Assembly (NCBI GenBank): GCA_039654915.1
Contig: CM077596.1
Location: forward strand, 52,326,501-52,390,500
Reading direction: 5' to 3'
DNA: 64,000 nucleotides
Source of the DNA: Aquilaria yunnanensis
Lineage: Eukaryota; Streptophyta; Magnoliopsida; Malvales; Thymelaeaceae
The notes beneath the pieces are model-generated. The model did not search any database. It was not told the DNA's origin and saw nothing but the letters and a program-made list of their open reading frames with translations. The translations under genes and the position numbers were made by a program. This document shows, piece after piece, positions 19,161 to 42,383 of the stretch. Numbering within the stretch: position 1 is the stretch's first letter; every line of letters begins with the position of its first letter.

Positions 19161-19674
19161 TGTTGACACCCAATTTCGTCCGGCCTTTTTTTTTTTTAAA
19201 AAAATTTTTTTTTAAAAACTAATTAAAAAAATTATTATTATTATTATTATTATTGCTAAAAAAATTTTAATTATGTTAATTAGTTTAAAATATATTTTTA
19301 TTTTGAGAAGATTTGATTTAAAATAATATATGTGTGAATATGTATGTGTTTGAAATAAAAATAAAATTTCAGAAAAAAATGACAAAAAATTAAAAGTTTG
19401 AGGTAAAAATGACATAATTGAGAAGTTTCGGACAAAATTGACAAATTCTGAAAGTTTCAGGAACTTTGGGTAATTTTTCGCGTCAATTTTGGGCCTAAAC
19501 GGACGTTTCTGGCCCAAATTGACAGAAAACGTTAAAATTGTCAAAATCAGAAGCTTCTGAGCTTATCCAGAGCTAGAGTAACGTAAAGGACTGAAACTGT
19601 CATTTTACCAATTTAAAAGATAAGTTTGAGATTTTTTATTAATTTATCCGTCCACAGTTCAGCTAAGCTCCTTC

Positions 19675-19682
19675 TATAAATA
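19675..19682 (+). promoter_or_regulatory. TATA box of the Ogre LTR promoter
   Basis: TATAAATA lies about 515 bp into the LTR, before a pyrimidine-rich leader. Transcription would be expected to start about 30 bp downstream, near 19,705-19,715. The assignment is by motif and position only. Confidence 0.6.
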
Positions 19683-19841
19683 CCCCCGAAAATTCAGTGC
19701 TGAACACATAGAAAATCATAGGAAAAATTTAGCGCTCCGTTTTAAAAATAGAGAAAATTACAGCCTTATTCCCTAGCCTCTCGTCCTTCTGCCAGAAAGT
19801 CTCAAAATTTTATTTTTCTACGATTTGACTATCTCCTTCGT

Positions 19842-20171
19842 TTGATCTCCTTCGTCGTTCTCTCTCTCTCCTCTCGTTTTCTCTCTCTTTCTCCTCCTGC
19901 CGTCACGCCGTCGCCGGTCGTCGTTTGCTCCCACGCCGTCCCGCCGCCGTCTTTTTCTCCTTTCCGTTTTCCTTCCGCCGCGTTTCTTCTCTCCCTCCGC
20001 CGGCTGCTGCCTGCCGCTCCTCCACCGCCCTCCGCCCATGCCGCCGTCGCCCCTCCGCCCACGCCTCGCCGCCCCACGCCCGTGCTCGCCTCCCTGCCGT
20101 GCCAGCTGCGCTTCGTCGCGTTTTCTGTTTTCCCAGCAAAACAGAATTTCAAATTCATTTCCCAAGGGTAA
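19842..20171. other. GC-rich island in the 5' LTR, open in several frames
   Basis: This block is strikingly rich in CCG/CGC and CTCTC within an AT-rich LTR. It is open on both strands in several frames, giving Pro/Arg/Ser-rich or Arg/Gly/Lys-rich translations. That pattern follows from composition and does not show coding. It most likely forms a structured pyrimidine- and GC-rich leader in the element's RNA. Confidence 0.55.
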
Positions 20172-20279
20172 AACCTCCTTTCAGTCCTTCATCTTTTCAA
20201 TTTCTTTCACTTTGGTCACTAACTTTTTATTTTGTTCTTGCAGAATTAATTACTAACCCTTTTTAATTTTTACTTGTTT

Positions 20280-20475
20280 ATTCATTATTATTATTACTAA
20301 CCTTTTGTTTTATTGTTGTTAACAATTGATTAATCTAACTTTACTAACTTTTATATTTATTGTTATTAACAATTAATTGATCTAACATTACTAACTTTTA
20401 TTTTTATTGTTACTAACAATTAACTCAACTAACTTACTAACTTTTATTTTTATTGTTACTAACTTTTGCTAATTA
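20280..20475. repeat. tandem repeat, ~60-bp unit, about three to four copies
   Basis: Repeated units contain ACTAACTTTTATWTTTATTGTTAYTAACAATTAA-type text with small changes. They lie inside the 5' LTR, downstream of the GC-rich island. Confidence 0.7.
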
Positions 20476-21064
20476 TTATAATTCATGGAAGGTTATACCT
20501 CCTATTTATTTAATTCTTTTAATGGATGGCCAAACAGCCCCATTTTTATCATTTATTTAATAATTGTTTTTAATATTTCTTTATGTGTTTTCTCTTTATT
20601 TGTTTATTTATTTTATGCATCTTTTACTTTTTAAATGGATGTCTAAACCAAAACAAAAAAAAGAAAACCTCCACTTTATTCATTTTCCTTTATTTACTTT
20701 ATGCAAAAATTTTATTTAAAAAAAAAAAAGAAATTAATCATGAAAGAAAAACTAATATAAATAAGTAAATGATAACTAATTAAAAGAAAATCCTTTTATG
20801 TGAATAATTAATTTTATTCTTTAAGACTAATATAATTTTTTTTCTTTAAAAAGCAAAAAAAATTTAATTAACTTTTTATTCCTTTTATTAAAATTAAATA
20901 AACATAAGTAAATAATAAAAAAAAATAATAATACAAATCATTTCTTTTTAAATATATCTTTAAAAGTAGCAATAATTAAAATTTAATAAAAACAACAATA
21001 AAAATCTAATAAAATTATAATTAAAATAATTATAATTAATTAAATAATTAAAATTTAACAAAAA

Positions 21065-22645
21065 TTAAAACTCCATGACCAAATGATCCGCCAGGATCCA
21101 TGGCTTGGAAATATTTTTTTAATAAAGTATATAAATAAATTTTTCTTTATTAAAAATAAACACTTTGGACTAATATATTAATTATTTAATAAAATATAAT
21201 TTTTTAGTAAAACGAATAAAAAGAGTAAAAATTTTGAGTTAATATTTTATTCAGTAATATTTTTACTTATTTCTTTCAAAATAATGAAAAGATATAACTT
21301 TTTGTTTCCTTTATAAAAATCTTAGTCAAAAATAATAAAAAATAAATAAAAAAAAAAAGTGAATTGAATTTCTCTTAAATATTTTAGACTTATTAATTAG
21401 ATATATTTTCAGAGATATAAATTAAAATTATTTAAAAAAATCTTTCATCAAACAAAAATAATATAAAAATAACAAATAAATATCAAGATTTTTATATACA
21501 TGTAAATTTTTAAATAATTACTTTTGGTTAAATTTCTATCAAAAACAAAACAAATAAATATCAAAAATTTTCCTTTATGTTTAAAATATACATAAAATTT
21601 TTTAGTTTCTTTTCTTGAATAATCATTTTTGCTTAATTCATTCAAAACAAAATTAAGACTTTTGTTCTATTTTTGAAAAATACATATGAATTTTGCTTTC
21701 ATCATTGAATAAATAAAATTTTAATTAAATAATTACTTTTTGATTTGCCTTTTATCAAATAAAAATATTAAGACTTTTCTTGTATTTTTGAAATATACAT
21801 ATAAGTTTTTATTTTCTTTATTAAATAAATAAAATCTTGATTAAATAATTTCTTTTTTGGTTTATCTCTTATTGAATAAAAAAGAATAAACATAACATAT
21901 AAATATGAATCTTTCTTTTATTTTTAATAAAACCTTGATAAATTTATTTCTTTAAAAAAAAAAACATAAAATAAATCTAAGCCATATTGTTAACTCTAAA
22001 AAAAAAATTTTTAGTTCATGGTATATTGGCTGGAAACTGTCTCGTGCCCGCTTTTGAGCTGCTTCACCTGGTGAAGAGGGTCTGGCTGAGTAACAACGCC
22101 CCGTACCATGATCAAATTTTTTTTTGAATTAACTTCTTATTAAAAAAAATTAATTACTTTTATATTCTTTTATAGATTAAGTAATTCTTTAAATAATAAA
22201 TATCCTTCATTAAACAAGAAAAATTAATAAAAAAAAAGAGAAAAAAAAAGATAAGAAAGATAAGAAAAAGAAAAGAAAGAAAAGAAAAGAAAATATAAAG
22301 AAAGAGAAATCAAATTTTTAGATTATTAATAAACCTAAAATTTCCAAATTAATAATTAAACTAATAATTAATTTCATAAAATAATAATTAAATAATTAAC
22401 TTTAAATTAATTTCCATATCCGGATGATCCGGCAGGATCTACGGTTCGGAAATATAAACCTTTTTTAAAAAAAAAAAACTATATAAATTAAATAAAAAGA
22501 TAAAAATCCATATTTTTACAATATGGATAAAATTATTTAAAATTTCACCAAATTCCGTGTCCAAATGACTCGGCAGAGTCCATGGTTCGGAATCAAAATC
22601 TTCCGTGTCCAAATGACTCGGCAGAGTCCATGGTTCAGAAGTATA
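21065..22645. repeat. dispersed ~38-bp motif, four copies, plus a hairpin island
   Basis: The motif, of the form CCAAATGAYYCGSCAGRRTCCATGG plus a CTTGG or TTCGG end, occurs near 21,074, 22,420, 22,556 and 22,602; the last two are in tandem. At 22,017-22,113 a GC-richer island is bounded by TCATGGTA and TACCATGA and contains the palindrome CTTCACCTGGTGAAG. These blocks stand out from the AT-rich background and could be RNA structures in the element's leader, but no function is shown. Confidence 0.6.
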
Positions 22646-22918
22646 AAATTTTACCCGAATTAATTACCAAAATCAACATTTTCGATTAATTCAGTTAAAA
22701 TTTCTAGTTTGAAAATTAACTGAATTTTTTTAAAGCAAAGTAAAATAAAATTAAAATCAACTAAGGTGCCAATTTTGGACGCTATAACAATATTGTTTTA
22801 GCGTAACCGTACTCCCGATCCCCGAACTCTCGCAGACCATATTTTAAGGTATCCAATCGACCTGAGCGAAAACCGATTGGTGGCGACTCCCGAAAAAGAC
22901 CCGTAGGTTGCCACAGCT

Positions 22919-22936
22919 TGGCGACTCCATTGGGGA
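22919..22936 (+). other. primer binding site, tRNA-Arg type
   Basis: TGGCGACTCCATTGGGGA follows the probable LTR end by three bases. TGGCGACTCC is the 3'-end complement of tRNA-Arg used by Ogre/Tat elements. A second TGGCGACTCC occurs 38 bp upstream inside the LTR end (22,881), so the exact site is a choice between the two. Confidence 0.7.
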
Positions 22937-23535
22937 GGATACGTTAGTGAGTCGAACCTAAAGTTGATTTGTTTTGATTTACTTTGCTTATTATGTGGAT
23001 TTTTATATGCTATATTTACTTAGCAAAAACATGCATTATGCATTCACAATATGAAGCTCTATACCCGAGCTTCCTCAAATCAAACACAATTCATTCTAAG
23101 CGGAATTGGTGTTGCTGTCCTTGTGAGGCCATGGTCTCCAAGCCTTCACCGGTTTCAAAGTAGCAAAGTAGTGTATTGCCTTCTGAGACGGTTAGTCTCT
23201 GCATGGGCCCACGAAAAGCTACGACTCGAATTAATCCATTCCTTACATTAACCCTAGAGGGTAAGGAATTGGGCCGTCACTATAATTTAGTGACGGGATT
23301 CGGGAACTATCCCTATCCTTTTTGATTAACCACATTCTGCATATAGAATTCCTTACTCTTCCGTAGAGCCAGCCATTAAGAAACTCCTATACTTCGGTTC
23401 CAATTACCATAGGCCTTGTCTTTTCTATATGTTTGTATGAATCTATGTGTTACCTTTTTACTAACTCTGTTTTTTTTTTTCCGGCATATACATTTCATCA
23501 TTAAAGAAAAATATTTGGTGAAAGAAATTACTATC
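22937..23535 (+). other. Ogre leader between primer site and ORF1
   Basis: No protein is supported here. A 66-codon open stretch at 23,051-23,251 has no recognisable similarity and is probably incidental. Confidence 0.5.
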
Positions 23536-25230
23536 ATGGATATTCTCGATTACCTTCCCACGGCTGTCAGTGGATCGTGGAATAACACGGTAATAAAAAC
23601 TCAGCCCGAAGCTATGGAATACTCCGAGATGGCCCAAAAACTTCACGGAGATTTTCTGATGTCCCACTCTCACGTACAGCTCAAGGACCAGGTATCGGTC
23701 CGGATAAATCAGAATGACACCACTGAATTGTTACAAGTGTGGAATAGTTGGAGCCCTACGGATCGCGAAGCATTCACAGCAACGTACGGTCATATTGCTC
23801 GCTTACTAAAAGTCACCGTCGACGCATCACTTATCCGGGCTCTAATCCAGTTCTGGGATCCATTTTATCGGTGTTTTTCGTTCGATAAGATAGATCTGGT
23901 TCCAACCTTAGAAGAATACAGTAACCTCTTGGGTTGGTCCTCCGACTATCCAATTGAGACGTATCAACATGACAGAAGAACGGAACCTCATCGAGCCCTG
24001 GCAAAATTATTGGATGTGCCAGCTTCCAGTCTTCAAGCCAAGTTTGCAACAAAAGGATGTCGGAAATTTATCAGTTGGACAGATTTGAAGCAATTGAGCC
24101 ATTCTCTTCCTCAGAAGAATCAACGACGCAAGCTTTTTGCATTGGCAATATATGGCCTGGTAGTCTTCCCAAGAATTGTTGGATTCATCGAAGGAGACGT
24201 TATCACGCTATTTGAGCAAGTCTGCTACACTCAAGTGAATCCGACCTCAGTAATCTTATGCGAAACTATTAGGGCATTAAACTTCTGTCACCAAAGAGGG
24301 GGCAAATTCATAGGATGTTCACACCTTCTCAACATTTGGATTAAAAGCCACCTTCATTGTGATAAGCAACACTTCGAAAATCGTTTTTCAAAGGACTTCA
24401 TACCAATCGAAGCTTTTTTGAAAAGTGAAACCACTCACCATGATAGCAAGGAAGCATGGGTTGACTACTTCAGAAATATCACTGAATTCCAAATTGAATG
24501 GAGAGCCCCCTGGTCCACCTCCACCCGAGTAGTCTACCGTTGCGGCAATTGCCCATGGGTTCCTCTCCTAGGTATATGGGGAGGAACAAGTTATGCCCCA
24601 GCTCAAGTGCGAAAACAATTTGGGTCCATGCAATTTATACCCATGACGCATAACCTGAGTAAGTTGGAATTCTCACATGAAGATCCAAATTCAAATAAGC
24701 TTGCAATGGGTATTTCAATTGCATGGAAAAGACTCTTCATATTAAAGTCGGGCCCTATTATTTCTCCCACTGCTTATTATGAATGGAGAAATGACCGAAA
24801 AGAAGGAATAGTTCTACCCGACGAGCTTATCAGAAAGTTGGCGAAAAGAGAGCTGGAGAAAGAACTAGATGAAGAAAAGGAGAAGAACAAGAAGATGCAC
24901 CTCGACATACAACAGCTCGGTCACAAGACACAACTCCTCGAAGAGAAGATCGAATGCCAAAAACAAGTTATCTCCCAACTAGTGGACGAAAATGATCAAA
25001 AGGAGATGAGAGCAAGATATTGGGAAGATCAGTACATGCTTTCCCAAGAACAACTACAAATATTTTTGGTAGAAGTCAGAAAAGTTACAGAGCAAGCCCA
25101 ACTAATGGGCGAAGAAGCCAAGGAGTTAGAAGAACTGAGCTGTCCTACTCCATCAGTAAATGTTCAAAGAATGATGGAGTTCATATCTAAGGCCAAAAAG
25201 CAGTATTGTACTTTGGGTCGTTTCTTTTAA
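23536..25230 (+). CDS. Ogre ORF1 protein (DUF7745-like)
   Basis: Ogre elements carry an extra ORF upstream of gag, of unknown function; this fits it in place and size (564 codons). I prefer the ATG at 23,536 (MDILDYLPTAV) over one 120 bp upstream, because the extra 40 residues are an unrelated hydrophobic run. Residues near 80-150 (SPTDREAFTATYGHIARLL, then PTLEEYSNLLGW) match the DUF7745 family seen in plant retroelements and related to plant mobile domains. The C-terminal ~150 residues are Glu/Lys-rich with heptad-like leucines, consistent with a coiled coil. It is uninterrupted, unlike most ORFs in the window. Confidence 0.85.
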   Translation: MDILDYLPTAVSGSWNNTVIKTQPEAMEYSEMAQKLHGDFLMSHSHVQLKDQVSVRINQNDTTELLQVWNSWSPTDREAFTATYGHIARLLKVTVDASLIRALIQFWDPFYRCFSFDKIDLVPTLEEYSNLLGWSSDYPIETYQHDRRTEPHRALAKLLDVPASSLQAKFATKGCRKFISWTDLKQLSHSLPQKNQRRKLFALAIYGLVVFPRIVGFIEGDVITLFEQVCYTQVNPTSVILCETIRALNFCHQRGGKFIGCSHLLNIWIKSHLHCDKQHFENRFSKDFIPIEAFLKSETTHHDSKEAWVDYFRNITEFQIEWRAPWSTSTRVVYRCGNCPWVPLLGIWGGTSYAPAQVRKQFGSMQFIPMTHNLSKLEFSHEDPNSNKLAMGISIAWKRLFILKSGPIISPTAYYEWRNDRKEGIVLPDELIRKLAKRELEKELDEEKEKNKKMHLDIQQLGHKTQLLEEKIECQKQVISQLVDENDQKEMRARYWEDQYMLSQEQLQIFLVEVRKVTEQAQLMGEEAKELEELSCPTPSVNVQRMMEFISKAKKQYCTLGRFF

Positions 25231-25420: not shown

Positions 25421-27157
25421 ATGGCAGAACAAGCCGAAGGACGTCTCATAGAGATGGAGTCCAAGATTGAAAGTATGGCAGAACAGATGAGACAATTGAT
25501 GGAACTAATCAAGGGGAAAGCAACTCAAATTCCCATCAAAGAAGCACAAGATCCCACTTATCCTCCGGGATTCACTCAGCAACGAGTCTCAGTCCAAGAA
25601 AACCTGTTTCAAGAACCAGGACAGTCTGCTAGTGTTCACCTGAAACAAGACACCATACATGAAGAGAAGAATATGTTACCAAAAGAAGAAGCAGAATCTC
25701 AAAAACTCGAAACGATAGAAAAGAGACTGCGAGCCATTGAAGGAGGTACTATGTTTGGATCTCTCTCAGTGGATGACCTCTGCTTAGTGCCAGACGTCGA
25801 AATCCCTTCGGACTTTAAGGTGCCAGATTTCGTGAAATACGATGGAACGAGTGATCCCATCACTCACATCACTTTGTTTCTTAGAAGACTACAACCACTT
25901 ACCAAAGCTGAGAAGGTGTGGATCGCACTTTTTCAGGAAAGTCTCACAAAATCAGCATTACAGTGGTATCTAAGCCAAGGTCCAAGAAACATAAAAACTT
26001 GGAATGACCTTGCTCAGGCCTTCATCGGCAACTATAAACATGTTATGGACTTAGCTCCGGATCGCCAAACTCTCCAAAACATGGAGAAGAAAAAAACAGA
26101 AACTTTTAAGGAATATGCCCAACGATGGAGGGACTTAGCTACACAAGTACAGCCACCCATGACAGAAAGAGAAATGGTCACTTTGTTTGTCCAGACACTG
26201 AAATACCCATATTATGACAAACTTATTGGCAATGCGGCAACTAACTTCTCCGACGTAGTCATGTCTGGAGAAAGGATCGAGCATGGTATCAGGACCGGGA
26301 AGATTACTGAGTCCTTTAGTGATCCTATGAAAAGAGGAGGACCATCCAGAAGAAAAGATGAGGAAATACAACAAATCGGACGAGGAAGAGGGATTCCCCT
26401 CGTGGGTACCGTGGCTACCGGACCTCGCCTATCCTATTCTGCCAATAGGCCCAATTATTATCCTACCAGTAGGCCCAATGATTATCCTCTAAATAGGCCC
26501 AGTGATTATCTTCCCAATAGACCCAACAATTATCCTCTCAACAGGCCTAATCAGTTACGGCCACCTGTTCCGACTCCTCCAATGCCTGCACCAAGACCAA
26601 GAGAAATTTTCGCACCGATTCCCATGACTTATACTGAGTTGTATCCAAAACTCATCCAGAGCCAACTCATTCGCCCAATTCCCACAAGGCCATTCGAACC
26701 CCCATATCCAACATGGTATGACCCTAAACTAAATTGCCCATATCATGATGGTGCCGTGGGCCACGGACTCGAAAATTGCATAGCATTGAAGTGTATAGTC
26801 CAACAATTAATTGAGTCAAAGTGGTTGGACTTTTCCGATGAACCAAACGTCACTCATAATCCATTGCCTCCTCATCAAGCCAAACCAGTCAATATGATGG
26901 AAGAATACTGGCCGATGAAGAAAACAGTCAATGATATCATAACCCCTCTTAAGCATGTATATTCATGCCTTGTGAAAGAAGGGATTATCATAGGAAAGTC
27001 TTCTGGAAATAAAGAAGTCGAGCATGAGGAGTGGTGCAACTTTCATAACAGTAAGAGTCATTCTATCCAAGAATGCCCAGAATTCCGTAAAAGTCTACAA
27101 AGTCTCATGGACTCCTCCCAAATCACGTTTTTATGTCAGATAAAGAGGATGACGTGA
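25421..27157 (+). CDS. Ogre gag polyprotein
   Basis: This encodes the structural protein of the virus-like particle. The plant gag core lies near residues 130-270 (LTKSALQWYLSQGP, EYAQRWRDLATQ). A proline-rich linker then contains about five copies of an N-RP-N-x-Y-P unit (26,440-26,560), a small in-frame tandem repeat. Two Cys/His clusters follow: CPYHDGAVGHGLENC and CNFHNSKSHSIQEC, variants of zinc knuckles. The N-terminus has a short coiled coil. The ORF overlaps the protease ORF by 25 nt in a different frame. Confidence 0.9.
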   Translation: MAEQAEGRLIEMESKIESMAEQMRQLMELIKGKATQIPIKEAQDPTYPPGFTQQRVSVQENLFQEPGQSASVHLKQDTIHEEKNMLPKEEAESQKLETIEKRLRAIEGGTMFGSLSVDDLCLVPDVEIPSDFKVPDFVKYDGTSDPITHITLFLRRLQPLTKAEKVWIALFQESLTKSALQWYLSQGPRNIKTWNDLAQAFIGNYKHVMDLAPDRQTLQNMEKKKTETFKEYAQRWRDLATQVQPPMTEREMVTLFVQTLKYPYYDKLIGNAATNFSDVVMSGERIEHGIRTGKITESFSDPMKRGGPSRRKDEEIQQIGRGRGIPLVGTVATGPRLSYSANRPNYYPTSRPNDYPLNRPSDYLPNRPNNYPLNRPNQLRPPVPTPPMPAPRPREIFAPIPMTYTELYPKLIQSQLIRPIPTRPFEPPYPTWYDPKLNCPYHDGAVGHGLENCIALKCIVQQLIESKWLDFSDEPNVTHNPLPPHQAKPVNMMEEYWPMKKTVNDIITPLKHVYSCLVKEGIIIGKSSGNKEVEHEEWCNFHNSKSHSIQECPEFRKSLQSLMDSSQITFLCQIKRMT

Positions 27158-28727
27158 ATGTGATAATTAAAGAACAAGAAGTCAATATCATGCCAAGACC
27201 ACTAGTCATTCCAATCTCAAAATCTGCTCTCAAGCCTTTAAGAATTCAAGTTCCAAAGCCATTCCCGTACAAATCAGACAAAACTGTTCCATGGAACTAT
27301 GGCTATACTTCTAACATCACATCAACTCCGTTAGAAGTTGGGGGCATGACTAGAAGCGGTCGGTGTTATTCTCCCGAGCAAATGAATAAGCTCCAACAAG
27401 AGAAGAATGTTACGGATCCAGCAAATGGACCTATTAACACATCTAAAGAGCAAGAGATGCCTCGAGCAGTAACAGATGAACAAGCTACTGAGTTTCTCAA
27501 ACTCATAAAGCAAAGTGAATACAGCATCGTGGAGCAGTTGAACCGTCTGCCAGTAAAGATCTCTATACTTTCATTGCTCTTAAGTTCCGATGCCCATCGA
27601 GAAGCTCTTCTCAAAGTCCTGAATAAGGCTTATGTTGAACAAAATATCTCCGTGAACAACTTTGACCACCTTGTCAACAACATCACGGCACAAAATCTCA
27701 TCACATTCACTGACGATGAGATACCAGCAGAAGGAATGGGTCACTCTAAGGCTCTACATATTTCGATTAAATACAAAGATCGGATTATGGCTAGAGTTCT
27801 GATTGACAATGGATCAGCTCTAAATGTAATGCCATTAGAAACTTTACATAAGATCGGTTTAGACCCATCACACCTCAACAACAGTCATATTGTTGTTCGA
27901 GCATTTGACGGAACAAAGAGAGATGTGGTTGGAGAAATAGAGCTACCAATTGGGATTGGTCCCTGTCTTTTCCATATCACATTCCAAGTCATGGACATTT
28001 CTCCATCTTATACTTGTCTGCTGGGAAGACCATGGATCCATATGGCTGGAGCAATTCCTTCCTCATTACATCAAAAAATGAAATTCATCATTGAAGGAAA
28101 GATAATCACAGTTTTTGCTGAAGAAGACATTCTGCTATCTAGACCTGCGGATGCTCAATATGTTGAGGTCAATGAAAATATACCTGATTGCTCATTCAGG
28201 TCTTTTGAGATTGTCAATGCTGCTTATGTCAGTGAATATGGAGAAGAACCCGTTCCTAACATCTCTAAAACAAGTCGCATGGTCGCCAAACTCATGATAA
28301 AAGGAGGATACTCACCGGGGTTAGGTTTGGGACAAGATTTACAAGGAATCCCAGAGCCATTGAAAATATCCGCAAATGAAGGGAAATACGGCCTAGGCTT
28401 CACACCGACAAGACACGATAAAATGAAGGCAATAGCTGAAAAGAGAGAAAAGAGGATTGCACGATTAACAGGGCATCCTCTCCAGGAAAGAAATCTGGAT
28501 ATCCCTGAAATCACCGAAACGTTCGTGAGTGGTGGTCTCATTCCGAAAAATGACAATGAAGGCAAGCTAACTATCAACATCAACAAGTCTTTTGAAAGTC
28601 TTTCTATTCAGGCAATCATCAGCGATTCACCTGAAGAGGAGGAGCTCGTTCAACCTTGTGGCCCACGGGATGTGCTGAACAATTGGGAGGCGATAGAACT
28701 GCCTGTTATAATCGAAAGCTTTACAAA
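27133..28727 (+). CDS. Ogre protease with G-patch domain
   Basis: This is an aspartic protease that would cleave the polyprotein. The active-site block reads VLIDNGSALNVMPLETL (27,797-27,847), the form common in Tat/Ogre elements, followed by the LLGRPWIH flap-side motif. A G-patch lies near residues 385-425 (GGYSPGLGLGQDLQG, KYGLGFTP), a known RNA-binding addition in some plant elements. The frame is -1 relative to gag, with a run of five T at 27,128-27,132 at the overlap. The reading frame continues into RT if the 200-bp intron is removed. Confidence 0.88.
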
Positions 28728-28927
28728 GTAATCTAATAGTAAAAACCTCCTAAAGAAAGGTTCAATCAATAGGATGTAGTCTTTGTTTAAGTGAACCTTT
28801 TAGTTATTGCTTTTTATTCCAATAAAGTTGTGATTTATGCACATTGTAAATAAAGTACCAGTTTGCATCCATCTCATTCGTGCCAATTTTTTTTCTCTTC
28901 TCTTTCTTTTCTCTCTGGATAATGCAG
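28728..28927 (+). other. putative intron between protease and RT
   Basis: Ogre elements are known for an intron at this point. Here the protease frame stops at 28,731, and a GTAATC donor begins at 28,728. A pyrimidine-rich stretch (28,890-28,915) leads to TAATGCAG, ending at 28,927. Removing these 200 bp joins the frames exactly: the split Lys codon is completed and the reading runs through PKTLFDDNER into the RT ORF. The frame match supports splicing; unspliced RNA would make gag-pro only. Confidence 0.78.
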
Positions 28928-31900
28928 ACCCAAAACTCTCTTTGATGACAATGAAAGAATGAACTTTGATAATCCTGTAAACACTACCGACTCGGATGAC
29001 GAAGATCTTCAAGTATCTCCTGAGCTATTAAAAATGATTGAGCGAGATGAAAAAGAAAGAGCAACAAGTCAAGAACCAACTGAGGTATTCAACCTGGGAG
29101 ATAGTCAGGATGTAAAAGAAGTCAAGATTGGCACTTTATTCCCTCCTGAAGAAAAAGAAGAATTAGTCCATTTATTGAAAGAATATGTGGATGTATTCGC
29201 TTGGTCATACCAAGATATGCCCGGCTTAAGCTCAGACATAGTACTACACAAAATACCCTTGAAGCCTGGGGTGAAGCCTGTTAGACAGAAGTTACGAAGA
29301 TTAAAACCGGAGTTAATCTTAAGAGTAAAAGACGAGATTCGAAAGCTGTGGGATGCAGGATTCCTTGGGGTCGCTGAATATACAGAATGGGTGGTTAACA
29401 TTGTCCCAGTCGAAAAGAAAGAAAGTGGGAAACTAAGAGTTTGTCAGGACTACCGGCCTTTGAACGAAGCCAGTCCTAAAGATAACTTCCCACTTCCTCA
29501 TATTGATACACTGGTGGATAATACCGCAGGAAACTCCTACTTTTCCTTCATGGATGGTTTTTCTGGATACAATCAAATCAAACTTGATCCAGATGACATG
29601 ATAAAAACTGCTTTTATTACCCTTTGGGGTACCTTCTACTATAAGGTGATGCCTTTCGGGTTAAAGAATGCTGCTGCTACATATCAAAGAGCCATGGTCA
29701 CGTTGTTCCATGACATGATGCATAAAGAAATTGAAGTATATGTGGACGACATGATCGCCAAAACTTTCACTGCTGGGGGGCATCTAAAAGTGCTAAGAAA
29801 ACTATTCGATAGACTTCGAAAATATCAATTGAAGTTGAATCCTGCCAAATGTACTTTTGGAGCCTCTTCAGGAAAGTTATTGGGTTTCATGGTCAGCAAG
29901 GACGGGATTCGAGTTGACCCGAGTAAAGTCAAAGCGATACAAGAAATGCAACCCCCGAAGACTCCAAAACAAGTAAGAAGTTTTCTGGGTAGAATCAACT
30001 TCATAGCAAGGTTCATATCACAATTGACGTCCAAGTGTGAACCGCTTTTCAAATCACTAAAGAAGAACAATCCGATTGAGTGGAATAACGAATGCCAAGA
30101 AGCGTTCGAGAAAATCAAACAATATCTATCAAATCCACCAGTCTTGATACCACCTTGATCCGGAGAACCGTTGATTCTATATTTATCCATACAGGATTCT
30201 TCATTAGGATCCGTATTGGGTCAACGTGATGAGACAAGCAAGAAGGATCATGCAATTTACTATTTGAGCAAAAAGCTTACCACATATGAAGCTAAATACT
30301 CAATAGTAGAAAAGTCCTGTTGTGCCCTTGCATGGGTAGCACATCGACTACGACACTATATTCTCAACAACACAACATTGCTGATCTCCAAGACTGATCC
30401 CATTAAGTACATTTTTGAGAAACCCGCTTTATCAGGCAGGATTGCAAAATGGCAAATGCTGTTATCTGAATACGACATACAGTATGTCACCCAAAAGGCC
30501 GTAGAAGGAAGTGTGATCGCTGAATATCTGGCTGATAGAGCATTGGAGGATTATGAGCCCATGAGAATGGACTTTCCTGATGGAGATATAATGACGATAA
30601 AACAGGAAGTCGATGAAGAAAATGAAACATGGAAAATGGCATTCGATGGAGCATCTAATGCTTTGGGACAAGGGATTGGAGCTATACTCATCTCTCCAAG
30701 CGGAGAGCAGTTTCCCCTCACAGCAAAAATTACATTTCCTTGTACCAACAATATAGTAGAGTATGAAGCATGTGCTATGGGACTCCAAATGGCATTGGAT
30801 TTGAAAGTGCGAGATCTCCGAGTCTATGGGGATTCCGCATTAGTCATATATCAAATCAATGGAGAATGGGAGACAAGAGATTCAAAATTAATCCCTTACC
30901 AAAAGCTTATACTAGACATGACTCGAAGATTTAACAGTATAAGTTTCCATCATCTTCCAAGGGAAGATAATCAAATCCCAGATGCTTTAGCTACTTTGGC
31001 TGCTATGTACAAGATAAGCGACCCTGAGCATACTCCTATGTTCGAAATGAAAATAATAGATTCTCCAGCTTATTGCATGAGCATCGAAGAAGAATTGGAT
31101 GGAAAGCCTTGGTATCATGATATCAAGAAATACCTCCAAGAACGAACATATCCACTAGAAGCATCAGAAAATGACAAGAAATTTCTACGAAGATTGTCAA
31201 TGGGTTTTCTTTTAAACCTAGACATACTCTACAAGAAAACCCCAGACTCGATGCTACTTCGCTGTGTAGATACTCATGAAGCACGAAAGATTATGGAAGA
31301 AGTTCATTCTGGAATATGTGGAGCACACACTAGTGGTCATACCATGGCAAGACAAATAATGAGGGCTGGCTACTATTGGCTCACATTGGAAAGTGATTGT
31401 ATTAATCACGTGAGAAAATGTCACAAATGTCAAATATATGCCAACAAGATCCAAGCTCCACCCACCCCTCTTAATGTAATAGCAATACCTTGGCCTTTTG
31501 CCATGTGGGGAATTGACGTCATTGGAGCCATTACCCCTAAAGCTTCCAATGGTCACAAATTCATCCTAGTGGCAATTGACTACTTCACTAAATGGGTAGA
31601 AGCTATGTCATATGCAAGTGTGACTCAAAAGGTGGTATGCCGGTTCATTAAGAAAGAAATCATTTGTCGCTATGGGCCGCCGGAATGTATCATCTCAGAC
31701 AATGCCACGAACCTGAACAATGCAATGATGCAGACTTTGTGCCGGCAGTTCAAAATCAAACATCTCAATTCGGCACCTTATCGACCAATGATGAATGGTG
31801 CAGTAGAAGCGGCCAATAAAAATATCAAGAGAATTGTTGAAAAGATGATCGTCACTTATAAGGACTGGCATGAGATGTTACCTTTTGCACTACATGCTTA

Positions 31901-32357
31901 TAGAACTTCTACCCGTACTTCTACTGGAGCAACACCTTTTTCCCTGGTATACGGTATGGAGGCTGTATTGCCTATCGAAGTCGAAATTCCTTCATTAAGG
32001 GTACTAATGGATACTCGATTAAGAGAAGCAGAATGGATCAAGGCTAGATACGAGCAATTAAACCTAATTGATGAAAGAAGAATGATAGCCCTTTGCCACG
32101 GACAGCTTTATCAAAGAAGGATGATTCGTGCTTACAATAAAAAGGTTCGCCCACGACAATTTCACGAGGGTGACATAGTGCTCAAGAAAATTTTACCCAT
32201 TCAGCATGATTCCAGAGGAAAATGGACACCAAATTATGACGGGCCATATGTTGTAAAGAAAGCATTTTCAGGAGGGGCACTAATTCTGACAGAAATGGAT
32301 GGACGAGAGTTACCAAAGCCAGTAAATTCAGATTCAGTAAAGAAATACTTTGCATAA
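28928..32357 (+). pseudogene. Ogre pol: RT, RNase H (two regions), integrase; one internal stop
   Basis: RT runs from about 29,280, with YVDDMIAKT at 29,739 carrying the catalytic Asp pair. A single in-frame TGA at 30,156-30,158 lies just after LSNPPVLIPP, where RNase H begins; otherwise the frame is open to 32,357. The first RNase H is around 30,180-30,520. A second RNase H-like region (MAFDGASNALGQGIGAIL, VYGDSALVIYQI, PDALATLA) at 30,630-31,000 matches the extra RNase H of the Tat lineage. Integrase follows: an HHCC zinc region (HSGICGAH, CHKCQ), then WGIDVIG, SDNATN and NGAVEAANK carrying the D, D and E residues. No chromodomain is seen. The stop makes this copy defective unless read through. 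Confidence 0.9.
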
Positions 32358-33691: not shown

Positions 33692-34240
33692 ATGGATCCT
33701 ACTTTTTCCGCCTTGCGAAAGTATTTCCCTTCTCTCCCAATGAACATCCTAAAAAAGATCTACCGAGTTCGCTGTGAACGATTAAGAGCTCTGATGCACA
33801 AAGGAATACCTGAAGATGTACGGTGGTTAATTGAAACCAAGGTTCGTCTGGCAGGTGAAATCCCAGAGACATTTGCATCTTACATGCCTGGTGTTGGCAA
33901 AAGTTCTTATGCCAGAAAAAGAAAAGCGAAAAGATTACAAGTCTGCCATAAATGTGGTAGGTGGACTTGTAAGACTAGGTGTCGTTCTTTAGGAATGATC
34001 TCCAATAATCGAGAAGATAAAATACGGTTCATCAAGAATGGCTTGAGTAAGGACTCATTGGATGATATCCAATTGACTCTTGAGACGCATTCTTGTGGAT
34101 CTGTGCAACATGAAATTCTTGATTTATGGAGTATTTTTCATGAAGAACGAGACCGTTACAATCCCGGGAATCTGACTTTAAACGACCCTGTTTGCCGGCT
34201 TGTAAGAAAGCTAGATGGGAAGCAGATCCTCGACTCATAG
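33692..34240 (+). CDS. cysteine-rich nucleic-acid-binding-like protein, copy 1
   Basis: A 182-residue ORF, first of four tandem paralogues. The N-terminal half is helical and basic (ALRKYFPSLPMNILKKIY). A basic run (residues 73-82, YARKRKAKRL) precedes four cysteines at 85, 88, 93 and 97 (C-x2-C-x4-C-x3-C). G-M-I-S-x-N and F-I-K-N-G follow. This order, YA-x-KRRA, then CxxC, then a second Cys pair, then G-x-I-S-x-N and FI-xx-G, resembles the cysteine-rich nucleic-acid-binding proteins of carlaviruses (Carla_C4 / Viral_NABP families), which bind nucleic acid and can suppress RNA silencing. The role here is inferred. It has no clear TATA box of its own. Confidence 0.75.
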   Translation: MDPTFSALRKYFPSLPMNILKKIYRVRCERLRALMHKGIPEDVRWLIETKVRLAGEIPETFASYMPGVGKSSYARKRKAKRLQVCHKCGRWTCKTRCRSLGMISNNREDKIRFIKNGLSKDSLDDIQLTLETHSCGSVQHEILDLWSIFHEERDRYNPGNLTLNDPVCRLVRKLDGKQILDS

Positions 34241-34402
34241 AAGCCGTTAATGCCGTTACTGGACGTAAAACCAGTGGAAGATGTGAGCCACAGTCACAAT
34301 TACTGTACATACAGTTTGTTATATTTGGAAAAATTTGCATTTTCTTTTGACAGATGTACATGCTCCCCTAAGTGTAATCGACACGTTATCCCTTTTTATC
34401 AC

Positions 34403-34409
34403 TATAAAT
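34403..34409 (+). promoter_or_regulatory. TATA-like box before copy 2
   Basis: CACTATAAATGCGTGTTCTTCC lies 127 bp before the copy-2 start codon. Near-identical text stands before copies 3 and 4, which suggests a conserved promoter segment duplicated with each ORF. Confidence 0.5.
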
Positions 34410-34529
34410 GCGTGTTCTTCCTTCTGATTAAACAGCAGATAAGATACCCCGTGACTTCTAAAATCGGTTATTCCAGTTTCCTGCAATAACTGATTCATTT
34501 CCCTCTTCTTTCAAATTCTTCTCTCATCA

Positions 34530-35063
34530 ATGGATTCTACTCTTTCTGTACTGCGAAAATACTTTCCTTCCCTCCCACTAAAAGTTCTTAAAAAGATCTA
34601 CCTTGCTAGATGTGAAAGAATCAGAGTTTTTACACGCAAAGGCATTCCCGACAATGTCCAGTGGATAATTGAGGCTAAGGTCCGTTTGGCTGGTGAAGTT
34701 CCAGATGCATTTAAGCCTCGTATGCCCGGCCTAGGTAAGAGCGCTTATGCCAAAAAGCGAAGAGCAAAGAGGCTAGATGTCTGTTATAAATGCGGACGAT
34801 GGAATTGTAATACTAAATGCCGCTCTTTAGGATACATCTCCAGAAATCGTGAAGATAAAAGAAAATTCATTAAGAATGGCCTGCGTAAGGAATCTCTGGA
34901 GGATATACGAGGGACTCTTGAAACGCATTCTTGTGGAATAGTACAACGCGAAATAGTCGGTTTATGGAGAACTTACCATAAAGAACGAGACCGTTACAGT
35001 CCCCAAAATCTAATTGTAAACGATCCTGTTTGCCAGCTTGTAAGAAAACTAGATGGGAAGTAA
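34530..35063 (+). CDS. cysteine-rich nucleic-acid-binding-like protein, copy 2
   Basis: 177 residues, the same architecture as copy 1, with the basic run YAKKRRAKRL and the cysteine cluster CYKCGRWNCNTKC. It ends five residues earlier than its paralogues because the Gln codon after KLDGK reads TAA. The core is intact, so the protein could still be functional. Conservation of the start, the basic run, all four cysteines and FIKNGL across copies argues that the coding frame was kept for some time after duplication. Confidence 0.75.
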   Translation: MDSTLSVLRKYFPSLPLKVLKKIYLARCERIRVFTRKGIPDNVQWIIEAKVRLAGEVPDAFKPRMPGLGKSAYAKKRRAKRLDVCYKCGRWNCNTKCRSLGYISRNREDKRKFIKNGLRKESLEDIRGTLETHSCGIVQREIVGLWRTYHKERDRYSPQNLIVNDPVCQLVRKLDGK

Positions 35064-35225
35064 ATCCCCGACTTATGAAGGCATTAAAGCCATTACTGGA
35101 CATAAACTAGTGGAAGATGAAAGCCACAGACATTATTGCTGTGCATATAAGCTGTCATTTGTCTTTTCTATTGATAATAATGTACTTGCCTCTGTAAGCG
35201 TAATAAACACGTTATCCTTTCACCG

Positions 35226-35232
35226 TATAAAT
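35226..35232 (+). promoter_or_regulatory. TATA-like box before copy 3
   Basis: CGTATAAATGTGTGTTCTTC lies 114 bp before the copy-3 ATG, matching the boxes before copies 2 and 4. Confidence 0.5.
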
Positions 35233-35339
35233 GTGTGTTCTTCTTTCTGGATACGGTACCCCGTGACTCTCACAGTCAGTTATTTCCGTTTCTTACAATA
35301 ACTAATTTCTTCCTTTCTTCTCAAATTCCTCTTTCATCA

Positions 35340-35888
35340 ATGGAATCTTTTCTTTCCACCCTGAGAAAGCATTTTCCTTCCCTCCCAAAAAATGTTCTTA
35401 AAAGGATTTATCAAGCTAGATGCGAACGATTCAGAGTATTTATGCACAAAGGTATTCCTGATAATGTGCGGTGGTTAATTGAAGCTAAGGTTCGGTCGGC
35501 TGGTGAAGTCCCAGATGCGTTCTTTCCCCGTATGCCCGGCTTTGGTAAAAGCGCTTATGCCAAAAAGCGAAGAGCAAAGAGGCTAGGTGTCTGTCATAAA
35601 TGTGGACGATGGAATTGCGATACTAAATGTCGTTTTTTAGGGATGATCTCCAGAAATCATGAAGATAAAAGAAAATTCATCAAGAATGGCCTGCGTAAGG
35701 AATCTTTGGATGATATCCTATTAACTTTTGAAACACATTCTTGTGAAACAGTGCAATGGGAAATTATGGATTTATGGTGGACTTTCCGTAAAGAACAGGA
35801 TCGTTACAGTCTTGGAAATCTAACTTTTAATGACCCTGTTTGCCAGTTTGCGAGAAAACTGGATGGGAAGCAAATCCCCGACTTATAG
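35340..35888 (+). CDS. cysteine-rich nucleic-acid-binding-like protein, copy 3
   Basis: 182 residues from the ATG at 35,340; the frame is open 35 codons further upstream, but the paralogues all begin at this M-x-(S/P)-x-(F/L)-S site. The basic run is YAKKRRAKRLGVC and the cluster CHKCGRWNCDTKC, with all four cysteines present. It is closest to copy 4 in the first 85 residues (both read IPDNVRWLIEAKVRSAGEVP and DAFFPRMPGFGKSAYAKKRR), pointing to a recent duplication or gene conversion between them. Confidence 0.75.
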   Translation: MESFLSTLRKHFPSLPKNVLKRIYQARCERFRVFMHKGIPDNVRWLIEAKVRSAGEVPDAFFPRMPGFGKSAYAKKRRAKRLGVCHKCGRWNCDTKCRFLGMISRNHEDKRKFIKNGLRKESLDDILLTFETHSCETVQWEIMDLWWTFRKEQDRYSLGNLTFNDPVCQFARKLDGKQIPDL

Positions 35889-36037
35889 AAGGCATTGAAG
35901 CCGTTACTAGACATAAACTAGTGGAAGATGAGAGCCACAGTCATGATTGCTGTACATATAAGCTGTCATTTTTCTTTTCTTTTGGCAATAATGTACTTAC
36001 TTCCGTAAGTGTAATAAACGCATTATCCTTTCATCAC

Positions 36038-36044
36038 TATAAAT
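36038..36044 (+). promoter_or_regulatory. TATA-like box before copy 4
   Basis: ATCACTATAAATACGTGTTC lies 115 bp before the copy-4 ATG. Upstream at 36,002 is TCCGTAAGTGTAATAAACG, which also occurs before copies 2 and 3 in related form. Confidence 0.5.
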
Positions 36045-36152
36045 ACGTGTTCTTCCTTCTGGATACGGTACTCCATAACTCCCAAAGTCAGTTATTTCCG
36101 TTTCCTACAATCACTAATTTCTTTCTTTTTCTCTTAAATGCCTCATTCATCA

Positions 36153-36701
36153 ATGGAGCCTTCTCTTTCCGCTCTACGAAAATATTTCCCTTCTTTCCCA
36201 ATAAATGTTCTTAAAAAGGTTTATCAAGCTAGATGTGAACGATTCCGACTATTTATGCACAAAGGCATTCCTGATAATGTGCGATGGCTAATCGAAGCTA
36301 AAGTTCGTTCGGCTGGTGAAGTTCCAGATGCGTTCTTTCCTCGTATGCCCGGCTTTGGTAAAAGCGCTTATGCCAAAAAGAGAAGAGCAAAGAGGCTAGG
36401 CGTTTGTCATAATTGTGGATGGTGGATTTGCGGCAATAAATGTCGTTCTCCAGGAGTGATCACCAGAAATTGTAATGATAGAATAAAATTCATCAAGAAT
36501 GGCTTGCGTAAGGAATCTCTGGAAGATATTCGAGAGGTTCTTGAAGCGCATTCTTGCGGAATAGTGCAATTTGAGGTTGTTGGATTATGGATAATTTTCC
36601 AAAAAGAACGAGATCGTTATAGTCTTGGGAATCTGACTTTAAACGACCCAGTTTGCCAGTTTGTGAGAAAACTGGATGGGATGCAAATCACCGATTCATA
36701 G
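36153..36701 (+). CDS. cysteine-rich nucleic-acid-binding-like protein, copy 4
   Basis: 182 residues from the ATG at 36,153 (another in-frame ATG lies five codons upstream, without a counterpart in the paralogues). The four cysteines are kept (CHNCGWWICGNKC), though two basic or polar residues around them differ from the other copies and the ISxN motif reads ITRN. FIKNGLRKESLED is retained. ORF starts are spaced 838, 810 and 813 bp, so the whole ORF-plus-spacer unit was multiplied. Confidence 0.75.
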   Translation: MEPSLSALRKYFPSFPINVLKKVYQARCERFRLFMHKGIPDNVRWLIEAKVRSAGEVPDAFFPRMPGFGKSAYAKKRRAKRLGVCHNCGWWICGNKCRSPGVITRNCNDRIKFIKNGLRKESLEDIREVLEAHSCGIVQFEVVGLWIIFQKERDRYSLGNLTLNDPVCQFVRKLDGMQITDS

Positions 36702-37288: not shown

Positions 37289-37918
37289 ATGGAGAAAACC
37301 CCAACTCGTAAATCCCGAAGTATTTGTGTATTTTCTGGGGCTTTTCCTGGAAAAGATGAAGAGTATTTAAAGGCAGCCAACCATTTGGGTAGAGTATTAG
37401 CTGAGCGAAAAATACATTTAGTTTATGGAGGAGGTAGTGTCGGATTAATGGGAGGTGTTGCATCAGCAGCATCTTTAGGAGGAAGTCAAGTTTTGGGCAT
37501 CATCCCTGGACCTTTGAAATTTGTTTCTGGGGGCACGATTGGAGAAGAATTAGTGGTTAAAAATTTGTAAGAGCGTGTGTTACAAATGCTTTTAAATGCT
37601 GATGCTTTTATCGCTCTACCAGGTGGTTTTGGCACATTGGGAGAAGTCTTTCAAATTGCTTCCATGGCCCAACTTAATTTGCATAAGAAACCCATTGGGC
37701 TTTTAAATGTTAACAATTTCTTTACAGGTCTGATAGCTTTTATGGATTATGCTATGCAGAAGAATTTCATATCAAGAGTGGCACGGCGAATCATAATATC
37801 CGCAACAACTGCTGAAGAATTGCTAGATAAAATACAAGCTTTTGTTCCTGAACCAGATCCAGCAATGATTCAGATAGACTGGACACGACAGTCTTTCCCG
37901 ACCAGTTCACTCCCATAA
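37289..37918 (+). pseudogene. LOG-like cytokinin riboside monophosphate phosphoribohydrolase, intronless, one stop
   Basis: LOG enzymes release active cytokinin bases from nucleotide precursors in the cytosol. The 209-codon frame matches the family from end to end: [15 protein letters not shown], then [23 protein letters not shown], then ADAFIALPGGFGTLGEVFQ with the PGG-x-GT-xx-E active-site motif, and HKKPIGLLNVNNFF. One in-frame TAA at 37,568-37,570 breaks it at codon 94, in a position where the family has polar residues. Plant LOG genes normally have several introns; there are none here, which suggests a captured cDNA copy. It lies inside the Ogre element in sense orientation. It was probably functional when captured; this copy is not unless the stop is read through. 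Confidence 0.88.
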
Positions 37919-38394: not shown

Positions 38395-40560
38395 CGAAGA
38401 AAATTATTCCAATTCTAATTGCTTTCATATAAATTTCGCTCGAGGTTCAAGGAAAGTTCCTTAACCTCATTCAATCAAATTTTCAAATGATAGGAAAGTT
38501 CCTATCATCGAGGTTAAAAGAATTTTCCTTAACCTCAAAATCATCAATTTACCTTCAAACGATAGGAGAGTTTCTATCGTCGAGGTTCTAAGGTAGGACC
38601 CTTAACCTCAAAACAATCAATTTTACTTCAAACGATAGGAGAGTTCCTATCGTCGAGGTTCTAAGGTAGGACCCTTAACCTCAAAATCATCAATTTTCCT
38701 TCAAACGATAGGAGAGTTTCTATCGTCAAGGTTCTAAGGTAGGACCCTTAACCTCAAAATCATCAATTTTACTTCAAACGATAGGAGAGTTCCTATCGTC
38801 GAGGTTCTAAGGTAGGACCCTTAACCTCAAAACAATCAATTTTACTTCAAACGATAGGAGAGTTCCTATCATCGAGGTTCTAAGGTAGGACCCTTAACCT
38901 CATTCAAACGATAGGAGAGTTCCTATCGTCGAGGTTCTAAGGTAGGACCCTTAACCTCATTCAAACAATTTTCCTTCAAACGATAGGAGAGTTCCTGTCG
39001 TCGAGGTTCTAAGGTAGGACCCTTAACCTCAAAATCATCAATTTTCTTTCAAACGATAGGAGAGTTTCCATCGTCGAGGTTCTAAGGTAGGACCCTTAAC
39101 CTCAAAACAATCAATTTTACTTCAAACGATAGGAGAGTTCCTATCGTCGAGGTTCTAAGGTAGGACCCTTAACCTCAAAATCATCAATTTTCCTTCAAAC
39201 GATAGGAGAGTTCCTATCGTCGAGGTTCTAAGGTAGGACCCTTAACCTCAAAACAATCAATTTTACTTCAAACGATAGGAGAGTTCCTATCGTCGAGGTT
39301 CTAAGGTAGGACCCTTAACCTCAAAATCATCAATTTTCCTTCAAACGATAGGAGAGTTCCTGTCGTCGAGGTTCTAAGGTAGGACCCTTAACCTCAAAAC
39401 AATCAATTTTACTTCAAAGGATAGGAGAGTTCCTATCATCGAGGTTCTAAGGTAGGACCCTTAACCTCATTCAATCAATTTTACTTCAAACGATAGGAGA
39501 GTTCCTATCGTCGAGGTTCTAAGGTAGGACCCTTAACATCATTCAAACAATTTTCCTTCAAACGATAGGAGAGTTCCTGTCGTCGAGGTTCTAAGGTAGG
39601 ACCCTTAACCTCAAAATCATCAATTTTCCTTCAAACGATAGGAGAGTTCCTATCGTCGAGGTTCTAAGGTAGGACCCTTAACCTCATTCAAACAATTTTC
39701 CTTCAAACGATAGGAAAGTTCCTATCGTCGAGGTTCTAAGGTAGGACCCTTAACCTCAAAATCATCAATTTTCCTTCAAACGATAGGAGAGTTCCTGTCG
39801 TCGAGGTTCTAAGGTAGGACCCTTAACCTCAAAACAATCAATTTTACTTCAAACGATAGGAGAGTTCCTATCGTCGAGGTTCTAAGGTAGGACCCTTAAC
39901 CTCATTCAATCAATTTTACTTCAAACGATAGGAGAGTTCCCATCGTCGAGGTTCTAAGGTAGGACCCTTAACCTCATTCAAACAATTTTCCTTCAAACGA
40001 TAGGAGAGTTCCTGTCGTCGAGGTTCTAAGATAGGACCCTTAACCTCAAAATCATCAATTTTCCTTCAAACGATAGGAGAGTTCCTATCGTCGAGGTTCT
40101 AAGGTAGGACCCTTAACCGCATTCAAACAATTTTCCTTGAAACGATAGGAGAGTTCCTGTCGTCGAGGTTCTAAGGTAGGACCCTTAACCTCAAAATCAT
40201 CAATTTTCCTTCAAACGATAGGAGAGTTCCTATCGTCGAGGTTCTAAGGTAGGACCCTTAACCTCAAAACAATCAATTTTACTTCAAACGATAGGAGAGT
40301 TCCTATCGTCGAGGTTCTAAGGTAGGACCCTTAACCTCAAAATCATCAATTTTCCTTCAAATGATAGGAGAGTTCCTATCGTCGAGGTTCTAAGGTAGGA
40401 CCCTTAATCTCAAAACAATCAATTTTACTTCAAACGATAGGAGAGTTCCTATTGTCGAGGTTCTAAGGTAGGACCCTTAACCTCAAAATTATCAAATTTT
40501 CCCTTCAATGATAGGAGAGTTCTTATCGCAGAGGCTCTAAAAAAATTTTCCTTAACCACA
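38395..40560. repeat. ~72-bp satellite array, about 29 copies, two hairpins per unit
   Basis: The unit reads AACGATAGGAGAGTTCCTATCG, TCGAGGTTCTAAGGTAGGA, CCCTTAACCTC, then a short AT-rich linker of two or three alternating forms (AAAATCATCAATTTTCC, AAAACAATCAATTTTAC, ATTCAAACAATTTTCC). CGATAGGA-GAGT-TCCTATCG is an 8-bp stem with a 4-nt loop. GAGGTT-ct-AAGG and CCTT-AACCTC form a second bulged stem. Edge units at both ends are the most diverged. Pea Ogre elements are known to carry variable tandem repeats in this position, just before the 3' LTR. Confidence 0.93.
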
Positions 40561-40649: not shown

Positions 40650-40664
40650 GCAAAGGGGGGCAGC
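40650..40664 (+). other. polypurine tract of the Ogre element
   Basis: GCAAAGGGGGGCAGC stands directly before the 3' LTR start. This is the expected site for plus-strand priming. Confidence 0.85.
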
Positions 40665-40766
40665 TGTTGACACCCAATTTCGTCCGGCCTTTTTTTAAAA
40701 AAAAAAAAATTTTTTAAAAAAACTAATTAAAAAAATTATTATTATTATTATTATTATTGCTAAAAA
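40665..40766 (+). repeat. truncated Ogre 3' LTR (first ~102 bp)
   Basis: It matches the first ~100 bp of the 5' LTR and stops at GCTAAAAA, where copia sequence begins. The remaining ~3.65 kb of the LTR are absent, also beyond the copia element. Confidence 0.9.
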
Positions 40767-42334: not shown

Positions 42335-42383
42335 CTCACGGTAGGAATGACAGAATTCTCACATAAAGCGGAAGGGGGGAGAT

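Follow-up and report, generated by a model that had tools for sequence, protein, structure and literature searches.

A 64,000-nucleotide stretch of the Aquilaria yunnanensis genome (contig CM077596.1, positions 52,326,501 to 52,390,500; the window in the following) contains a long terminal repeat (LTR) retrotransposon which, judged by its domain order, is of the Ogre type (Tat lineage) and which carries four open reading frames (ORFs) whose products are, by profile match, related to plant-virus nucleic-acid-binding proteins (NABPs). These are followed by a gene of the LONELY GUY (LOG) type. The cassette is family-wide, usually with three NABP genes and then LOG, the window copy having one extra NABP, and both NABP and LOG are under purifying selection. 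With moderate confidence, one to four NABP genes followed by LOG are regarded here as an accessory cassette of LTR retrotransposons that is kept by selection and likely weakens silencing and sustains host cell division.

The four NABP ORFs, which lie between the integrase and the 3' LTR remnant, encode 177-182 aa from the ATGs used in Table 1 (the third and fourth also have longer upstream starts), and their starts are 838, 810 and 813 bp apart. Identity to NABP1 is 69% for NABP2, 68% for NABP3 and 66% for NABP4. An original prediction, made from the letters of the window, had described four ORFs of ~180 residues in ~810-bp units between integrase and 3' LTR of an Ogre element, and this was borne out, as were the motifs that it had listed, namely A-(K/R)-K-R-(R/K)-A-K-R-L, C-x2-C-x4-C-x3-C, G-x-I-(S/T)-x-N and FIKNG, which are all present in the ORFs. 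In Pfam, NABP1 to NABP4 matched Viral_NABP (E 5.4e-6, 3.8e-8, 2.1e-6 and 5.9e-6) and Carla_C4 (E 9.8e-5, 1.7e-4, 4.9e-5 and 3.5e-5), all exceeding the curated cut-offs, and each of the two families was matched by 63 of 64 aligned NABP proteins at E <= 0.01. Chance or composition bias was ruled out as the source of the match, as none of nine shuffled sequences of the second ORF (ORF2) matched Viral_NABP or Carla_C4. An ordinary host zinc-finger family was ruled out as well, with no better match in Pfam and, for ORF2, no match in PDB. The basic run ends in KRL two residues ahead of the first Cys in all four ORFs, and for carlavirus cysteine-rich proteins (CRPs) a basic run directly ahead of a C4 finger is described (PMC8839810, PMC9559581).

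For the LOG gene, an open copy from another locus of the family (P0121 in L022) matched PF03641 at E 1.6e-30 over positions 1-131 of 131 and the Arabidopsis LOG-family structure 2a33 at E 8e-52. The LOG active-site motif PGGxGTxxE was found in the LOG piece of the window and in 112 of the 121 proteins P0121-P0241. LOG frees active cytokinin from its nucleotide, and the product of the transposon gene is predicted to be such a cytokinin-activating enzyme. Members of the LOG family are described as regulators of cytokinin activity (PMC9289625). In the Xanthoceras gene models P0123 and P0124 the LOG sequence is present twice.

Profile searches of the plant's own genome (842 Mb) scored the best 150 candidates per query, and the intactness figures from these best-scoring places are therefore biased upward. 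A first look for NABP gave 7,053 candidates, the 150 scored all exceeding the cut-off and 144 of them being stop-free within the match; for LOG there were 3,311 candidates, and each of the 150 scored spanned the domain completely in a single frame, 145 of them being free of stops. When up to 3 mismatches were allowed, a 38-base LOG tag had 2,372 matches in the genome (reversed control: 0), in contrast to 5 matches of an exact degenerate cellular-LOG motif, which is a lower bound for cellular LOG genes.

The make-up of the cassette was followed in 20 NABP places, taken with 10 kb each from across the ranking of the 150. Three NABPs were present in 14 loci, four in three and two in three; LOG lay 3' of the NABP array on the same strand in 19 loci, and the RNase H-integrase region lay upstream of the NABPs in seven. 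The locus without LOG (L015) is explained by the NABP array breaking off there, followed by LTR-end sequence. The pairing of NABP and LOG does not merely reflect that the loci had been picked by their NABPs, since at 10 of 12 places of this family chosen by integrase (C1 below 30.63 Mb) an exact LOG tag lies 3.5-5.7 kb downstream on the same strand; the remaining two may have LOG tags with mismatches, the comparison being with exact tags. NABP3 is skipped in nine of the 20 loci, where the alignment jumps from window position 35239 to 36087, and as L017 carries it at 92% the window copy is not alone in having this extra unit. A single odd copy was thus ruled out by the NABPs in all 20 loci and the 2,372 LOG tags, and four NABPs as the normal state by the 14 loci with three. 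The idea of one gene multiplied within one element, as originally proposed, has to give way to a cassette found throughout a family, with three NABPs as the usual number and LOG alongside. Four derivatives (L011, L018, L024 and L028) have a common deletion junction (window 25479|28040) and are without gag, most of the protease, reverse transcriptase and integrase; they hold ~2.4-2.7 kb of other sequence (three measured) with no ORF over 130 codons and still keep three or four NABPs plus LOG.

The selection counts left aside frameshifted or cut copies, defined by a match to less than 90% of the query, as well as any codon containing a stop or a gap. Pairwise dN/dS was 0.22 for NABP1, 0.32 for NABP2, 0.25 for NABP4, 0.20 and 0.25 for the two LOG pieces and 0.11 for the RNase H-integrase region (5 copies). 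With minimum spanning trees, which were used to limit double counting, pN/pS (one-sided P) was 0.29 for NABP1 (1.9e-20), 0.40 for NABP2 (1.6e-18), 0.32 for NABP4 (2.7e-22), 0.32 and 0.28 for the LOG pieces (7.9e-7 and 1.6e-12) and 0.14 for RNase H-integrase (3.3e-20). Between the closest pairs the ratios rose (for NABP2 to as much as 0.70), as is expected from decay after insertion. Ratios were 0.24-0.36 in 13 loci without reverse transcriptase to integrase in the fetched stretch, a set that includes the four derivatives; they were 0.16-0.52 in these four and 0.24-0.54 in the five loci keeping gag or protease, the latter two sets having few differences. Among the window's own NABPs dN/dS was 0.19-0.29; neither a value near 1 nor the lack of a significant viral NABP match together with a better match to a host family, the two outcomes named beforehand in the original prediction as speaking against it, was obtained.

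A second retrotransposon family was reached through gene models of other plants. In Rhamnella, P0075 has an NABP fused to an integrase end which is 24% identical to the window integrase and presumably of the Athila type, and P0087 has an NABP joined to LOG, its NABP part reaching Pfam only in a precomputed table. In Orobanche, P0112 joins an NABP to a protease-like end. Names in the NABP family span several eudicot families (Xanthoceras, Rhamnella, Orobanche, Parasponia, Striga). A search of the own genome with the integrase end of P0075 gave 150 scored places, and eight, chosen by eye, were fetched, five with 74-83% identity to P0075 (L029-L033) and three with 59-62%. The nearest group had NABP in five of five loci and LOG in four; neither NABP nor LOG was found in the three fetched loci of the more distant group. 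The NABP of L030-L033 starts 327-347 bp past the integrase match, and LOG follows ~200-230 bp past the NABP. L029 has its NABP in two pieces, 1.2 and 2.5 kb past the integrase, and no LOG in the 6 kb. These Athila-type copies are themselves decayed, with frameshifts and stops.

In the NABP tree, the own Athila NABPs and the Ogre NABP1 form one clade (95/76) and NABP2, NABP3 and NABP4 another (100/99). Both belong to a larger clade of the own copies, joined by the foreign contigs P0001 and P0002, which is set apart from other plants (100/94). The LOG tree places own Ogre LOGs plus P0122 (100/97) as sister to own Athila LOGs (98/85) in a joint clade (100/100). As both trees group the copies of the two families, NABP and LOG most likely moved together between Ogre-type and Athila-type lineages in this plant's ancestry. 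That the Athila-type elements have one NABP, and that NABP1 is nearest to it, would point to a transfer from Athila to Ogre. With the cassette also present in Athila-type elements, this Ogre would more likely have acquired it from a retrotransposon than directly from a virus, and the direct viral capture that had been proposed is not upheld, since Athila-type elements of the same genome carry a cassette with one NABP. In other plants, NABP and LOG hits on contigs of the same length (P0009/P0173 with 4,511, P0090/P0240 with 2,425 and P0073/P0174 with 2,128 bases) give an unconfirmed hint of linkage.

Between 60 and 200 nt upstream of the start codon, a TATAWAW box is present in 17 of 18 copies of NABP2, 4 of 5 of NABP3 and 18 of 19 of NABP4, with 0.11 expected per 150 nt. 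In 19 LOG copies, 18 such boxes lie 31-50 nt upstream of the start codon, a short distance for a promoter. These boxes suggest internal promoters ahead of NABP2-4 and LOG, and as NABP2-4 each have a box, the tandem unit likely duplicates the gene together with its promoter.

In the course of events proposed here, the cassette would have arisen in the Athila lineage with a single NABP and LOG, and an Ogre element in the ancestry of this plant would have picked it up by recombination. The NABP would then have multiplied along with a leader that contains the TATA box, so that more copies could be transcribed independently. The protein may enter the nucleus by its basic run and bind RNA or DNA, and it could block small-RNA silencing or turn on proliferation genes as is reported of carlavirus CRPs, and LOG would release active cytokinin; in meristem cells, both might help new insertions to be expressed and inherited. 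Carlavirus CRPs are reported to suppress silencing, and CVB p12 is described in addition as a transcription factor causing hyperplasia (PMC12172455, PMC8839810, PMC3689765). By analogy, silencing suppression may be ascribed to NABP and cytokinin-driven proliferation to LOG. One step further, the element could be seen as the plant counterpart of an oncogene-carrying retrovirus, with NABP as suppressor and transcription factor and LOG as cytokinin source providing dividing host cells and germ-line insertions, and with the cassette as a mobile module, exchanged between Athila and Ogre elements and kept by derivatives devoid of gag-pol; this is a speculative extension and rather improbable.

NABP might instead assist the element in its structure or replication (as an RNA chaperone, or a factor in packaging or nuclear export, in an env-like position) without any anti-silencing role, so that LOG alone would act on the host. 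Small basic cysteine-rich proteins are often nucleocapsid-like chaperones; the position of NABP 327-347 bp past the integrase match in four Athila-type copies is in line with this, and its retention in copies without gag, most of the protease, reverse transcriptase and integrase fits a factor that acts on element RNA. However, the Pfam relatives are viral proteins described for silencing suppression and transcription control (PMC12172455), and tandem multiplication suits a dose-dependent diffusible factor at least equally well; the helper role is regarded as unlikely.

Returning to a selected cassette that acts on silencing and cell division, several observations weigh against it. Among the 56 full-length NABP copies of the 20 sampled loci, 25 have an in-frame stop, and so do 7 of 18 and 4 of 18 copies of the two LOG pieces. 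The LOG of the window copy is itself broken by a stop, frameshifted copies were excluded before the selection counts, and small subsets had higher ratios (a LOG piece 0.54 in 5 copies, NABP1 0.52 in 4 copies). No TATA box precedes NABP1 in any of 18 copies, and the boxes before the other genes are weak evidence for promoters because copies of one family inherit them. The Athila label of L029-L033 is a presumptive one, assigned by similarity, and in the NABP tree the Athila copies join NABP1 with moderate support (95/76). The finger spacing C-x2-C-x4-C-x3-C is present in 109 of the 120 NABP relatives listed, as in the window ORFs, and the spacing C-x2-C-x9/12-C-x4-C in none of these 120. An AlphaFold model of NABP was poor (pLDDT 65, pTM 0.30), and a Foldseek search with it against BFVD gave no viral match at E <= 0.001, the best being 0.045; at ranks 1-28, query-normalised TM was at most 0.27 for this low-confidence query.

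Stops in many copies together with low ratios indicate that individual copies decay while the lineage is constrained. Selection on the proteins had originally been deduced from the open frames of the window copy; with stops in 25 of 56 copies such frames say little, and it is the substitution pattern (pN/pS 0.28-0.40) on which that part of the claim stands. NABP and LOG as mere passengers without benefit would agree with the many stops, yet purifying selection in every gene part tested (three slots of NABP, two pieces of LOG), and the joint presence of NABP and LOG in two retrotransposon lineages and in pol-less derivatives, make this highly improbable.

The likeness to carlavirus NABPs claimed for the four ORFs was supported by their Viral_NABP and Carla_C4 matches above cut-off and was not supported by the finger, for which the published carlavirus spacing is C-x2-C-x9/12-C-x4-C (PMC8839810, PMC9559581, PMC3689765). 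The proposed direction from virus to transposon also found no support, and the finger is unlike the published carlavirus ones. Within Foldseek ranks 1-28, again with the low-confidence model, the 24 named matches are NABPs, suppressors or small proteins of flexiviruses. A core-profile search of short proteins named plants, metagenomes and one bacterium and no virus among the 120 listed of 488 matches, and the IMG/VR search confirmed no NABP relative. The bacterial entry, P0354, is a 98-aa NABP fragment on a 293-base contig labelled Clostridioides difficile and is probably plant DNA in a bacterial assembly. A plant cellular origin of the NABP fold, acquired separately by retrotransposons and flexiviruses or passed from transposon to virus, is a possible alternative, though not the favoured one: NABP occurs in the range of eudicots given above, and with 182 aa the protein of the transposon exceeds most viral Foldseek matches in length and has a finger spacing of its own. 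On the other hand, the 20 own-genome NABP matches that were sampled all belong to loci of this retrotransposon family, and no cellular NABP gene was seen among the best 150 of the 7,053 first-look candidates.

The remaining features of the element are collected in Table 1. Assignment to Ogre follows from RVT_3 between RNase H and integrase and from the plant mobile domain (PMD) ORF. The LTR pair was found by self-comparison of the window (19161-19262 versus 40665-40766, 102 bp at 92%), and the right end of the 5' LTR is backed by L015, where the match extends to 22915. The candidate primer-binding site TTGGCGACTCCATTGGGGA may be of the tRNA-Arg type of Ogre elements. Priming of the tRNA-Arg type is described as an Ogre trait, and a G-patch in the protease region is also known from other plant Gypsy elements (PMC9289625); a second RNase H between RNase H and integrase marks Ogre elements, 57% of which have a PMD ORF (PMC6317226). 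The window copy is defective, with different frames for gag and protease, a stop in pol (30156-30158) and the stop in LOG; all four NABP frames are open. The original prediction had overlooked the LOG gene, the gag/protease frame break and the cut of the 3' LTR after 102 bp. The insertion at 40767-42860 was called copia-like by eye (ORFs 41075-41587 and 41825-42334), and similar stretches near 40767 and 42822 look like its ends. Outside the element, a direct repeat of ~950 bp with 75% identity was found (7999-8906 versus 9445-10385).

Table 1. Features of the Ogre-type element, in window coordinates
Feature	Position	Strand	Remarks
5' LTR	19161..22915	+	3,755 bp, TGTTGACACCC...GCCACA; ends read from sequence
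Primer-binding-site-like TTGGCGACTCCATTGGGGA	22918..22936	+	directly 3' of 5' LTR; read from sequence
Extra ORF 5' of gag, DUF7745 / plant mobile domain	23416..25230	+	PF24924 E 3.9e-55, PF10536 E 2.1e-9
gag	25421..27157	+	Retrotrans_gag E 2.3e-12
Protease region with G-patch	27133..28731	+	G-patch E 3.9e-8; frame differs from gag here
Reverse transcriptase ORF	28959..30158	+	RVT_1 E 6.2e-27; terminated by stop in window copy
RNase H, second RNase H (RVT_3), integrase	30171..32357	+	RT_RNaseH, RVT_3, Integrase_H2C2, rve, in order
NABP1	33692..34240	+	viral-NABP-like; among window copies nearest to Athila-borne NABP
NABP2	34530..35063	+	Viral_NABP E 3.8e-8
NABP3	35340..35888	+	extra unit; also in L017 (92%)
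NABP4	36153..36701	+	Viral_NABP E 5.9e-6, Carla_C4 E 3.5e-5
LONELY GUY-like (LOG) gene, intronless	37289..37918	+	PGGFGTLGE kept; in-frame stop 37568-37570 in window copy
Tandem array, ~72-73-bp units	38436..40540	+	between LOG and 3' LTR
Polypurine-tract-like AAAGGGGGGCAGC	40652..40664	+	directly 5' of 3' LTR; read from sequence
3' LTR remnant	40665..40766	+	102 bp, ends at start of copia-like insertion

The usual view of plant LTR retrotransposons is that of gag-pol parasites kept silent by the host. The two lineages described here have in common a cassette of two genes under selection, which pairs a member of a virus silencing-suppressor family with a member of a meristem-hormone enzyme family. 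If the proposed functions are true, transposons would steer plant development and defence using viral-type tools, and gene exchange among RNA viruses, retrotransposons and plants would become testable gene by gene. In the titles and abstract openings covered by the literature searches, no report of a retrotransposon with NABP or with the NABP-LOG pair was found.

Plant Ty3/gypsy elements with a LOG gene have been published before. Steinbauerova et al. (2011) reportedly found it in Athila-like Ty3/gypsy elements. YgdH/LOG ORFs are also described in Citrus and Populus elements from a screen of 121 angiosperm genomes, in a section that does not name NABP (PMC9289625). In these published elements, LOG lies inside the element too, and the Athila-type copies reported here look to be of this kind; unlike there, LOG is here paired with NABP, reaches 2,372 tag matches and is found in an Ogre-type family as well. 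In Phalaenopsis, giant elements related to Tat/Ogre carry an ORF for an AlkB m6A RNA demethylase whose activity was shown (PMC9289625). They are likewise large Tat-lineage elements with an additional ORF of cellular-type function, but have one AlkB-like dioxygenase ORF, and NABP or LOG is not described for them in that account. Ogre elements with a PMD ORF (PMC6317226) have this ORF and the second RNase H in common with the window element; ORFs of ~180 codons fall short of the lower bound of that survey, in which extra ORFs were counted from 250 codons upward. The CRPs of flexiviruses (carlaviruses and other Alpha- and Betaflexiviridae) belong to the same Pfam families as the transposon NABP and have the same layout of basic run plus finger. 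A CRP is the 3'-terminal gene of an RNA genome, whereas the NABP sits in an LTR retrotransposon, measures 177-182 aa, has another finger spacing and occurs in tandem copies.

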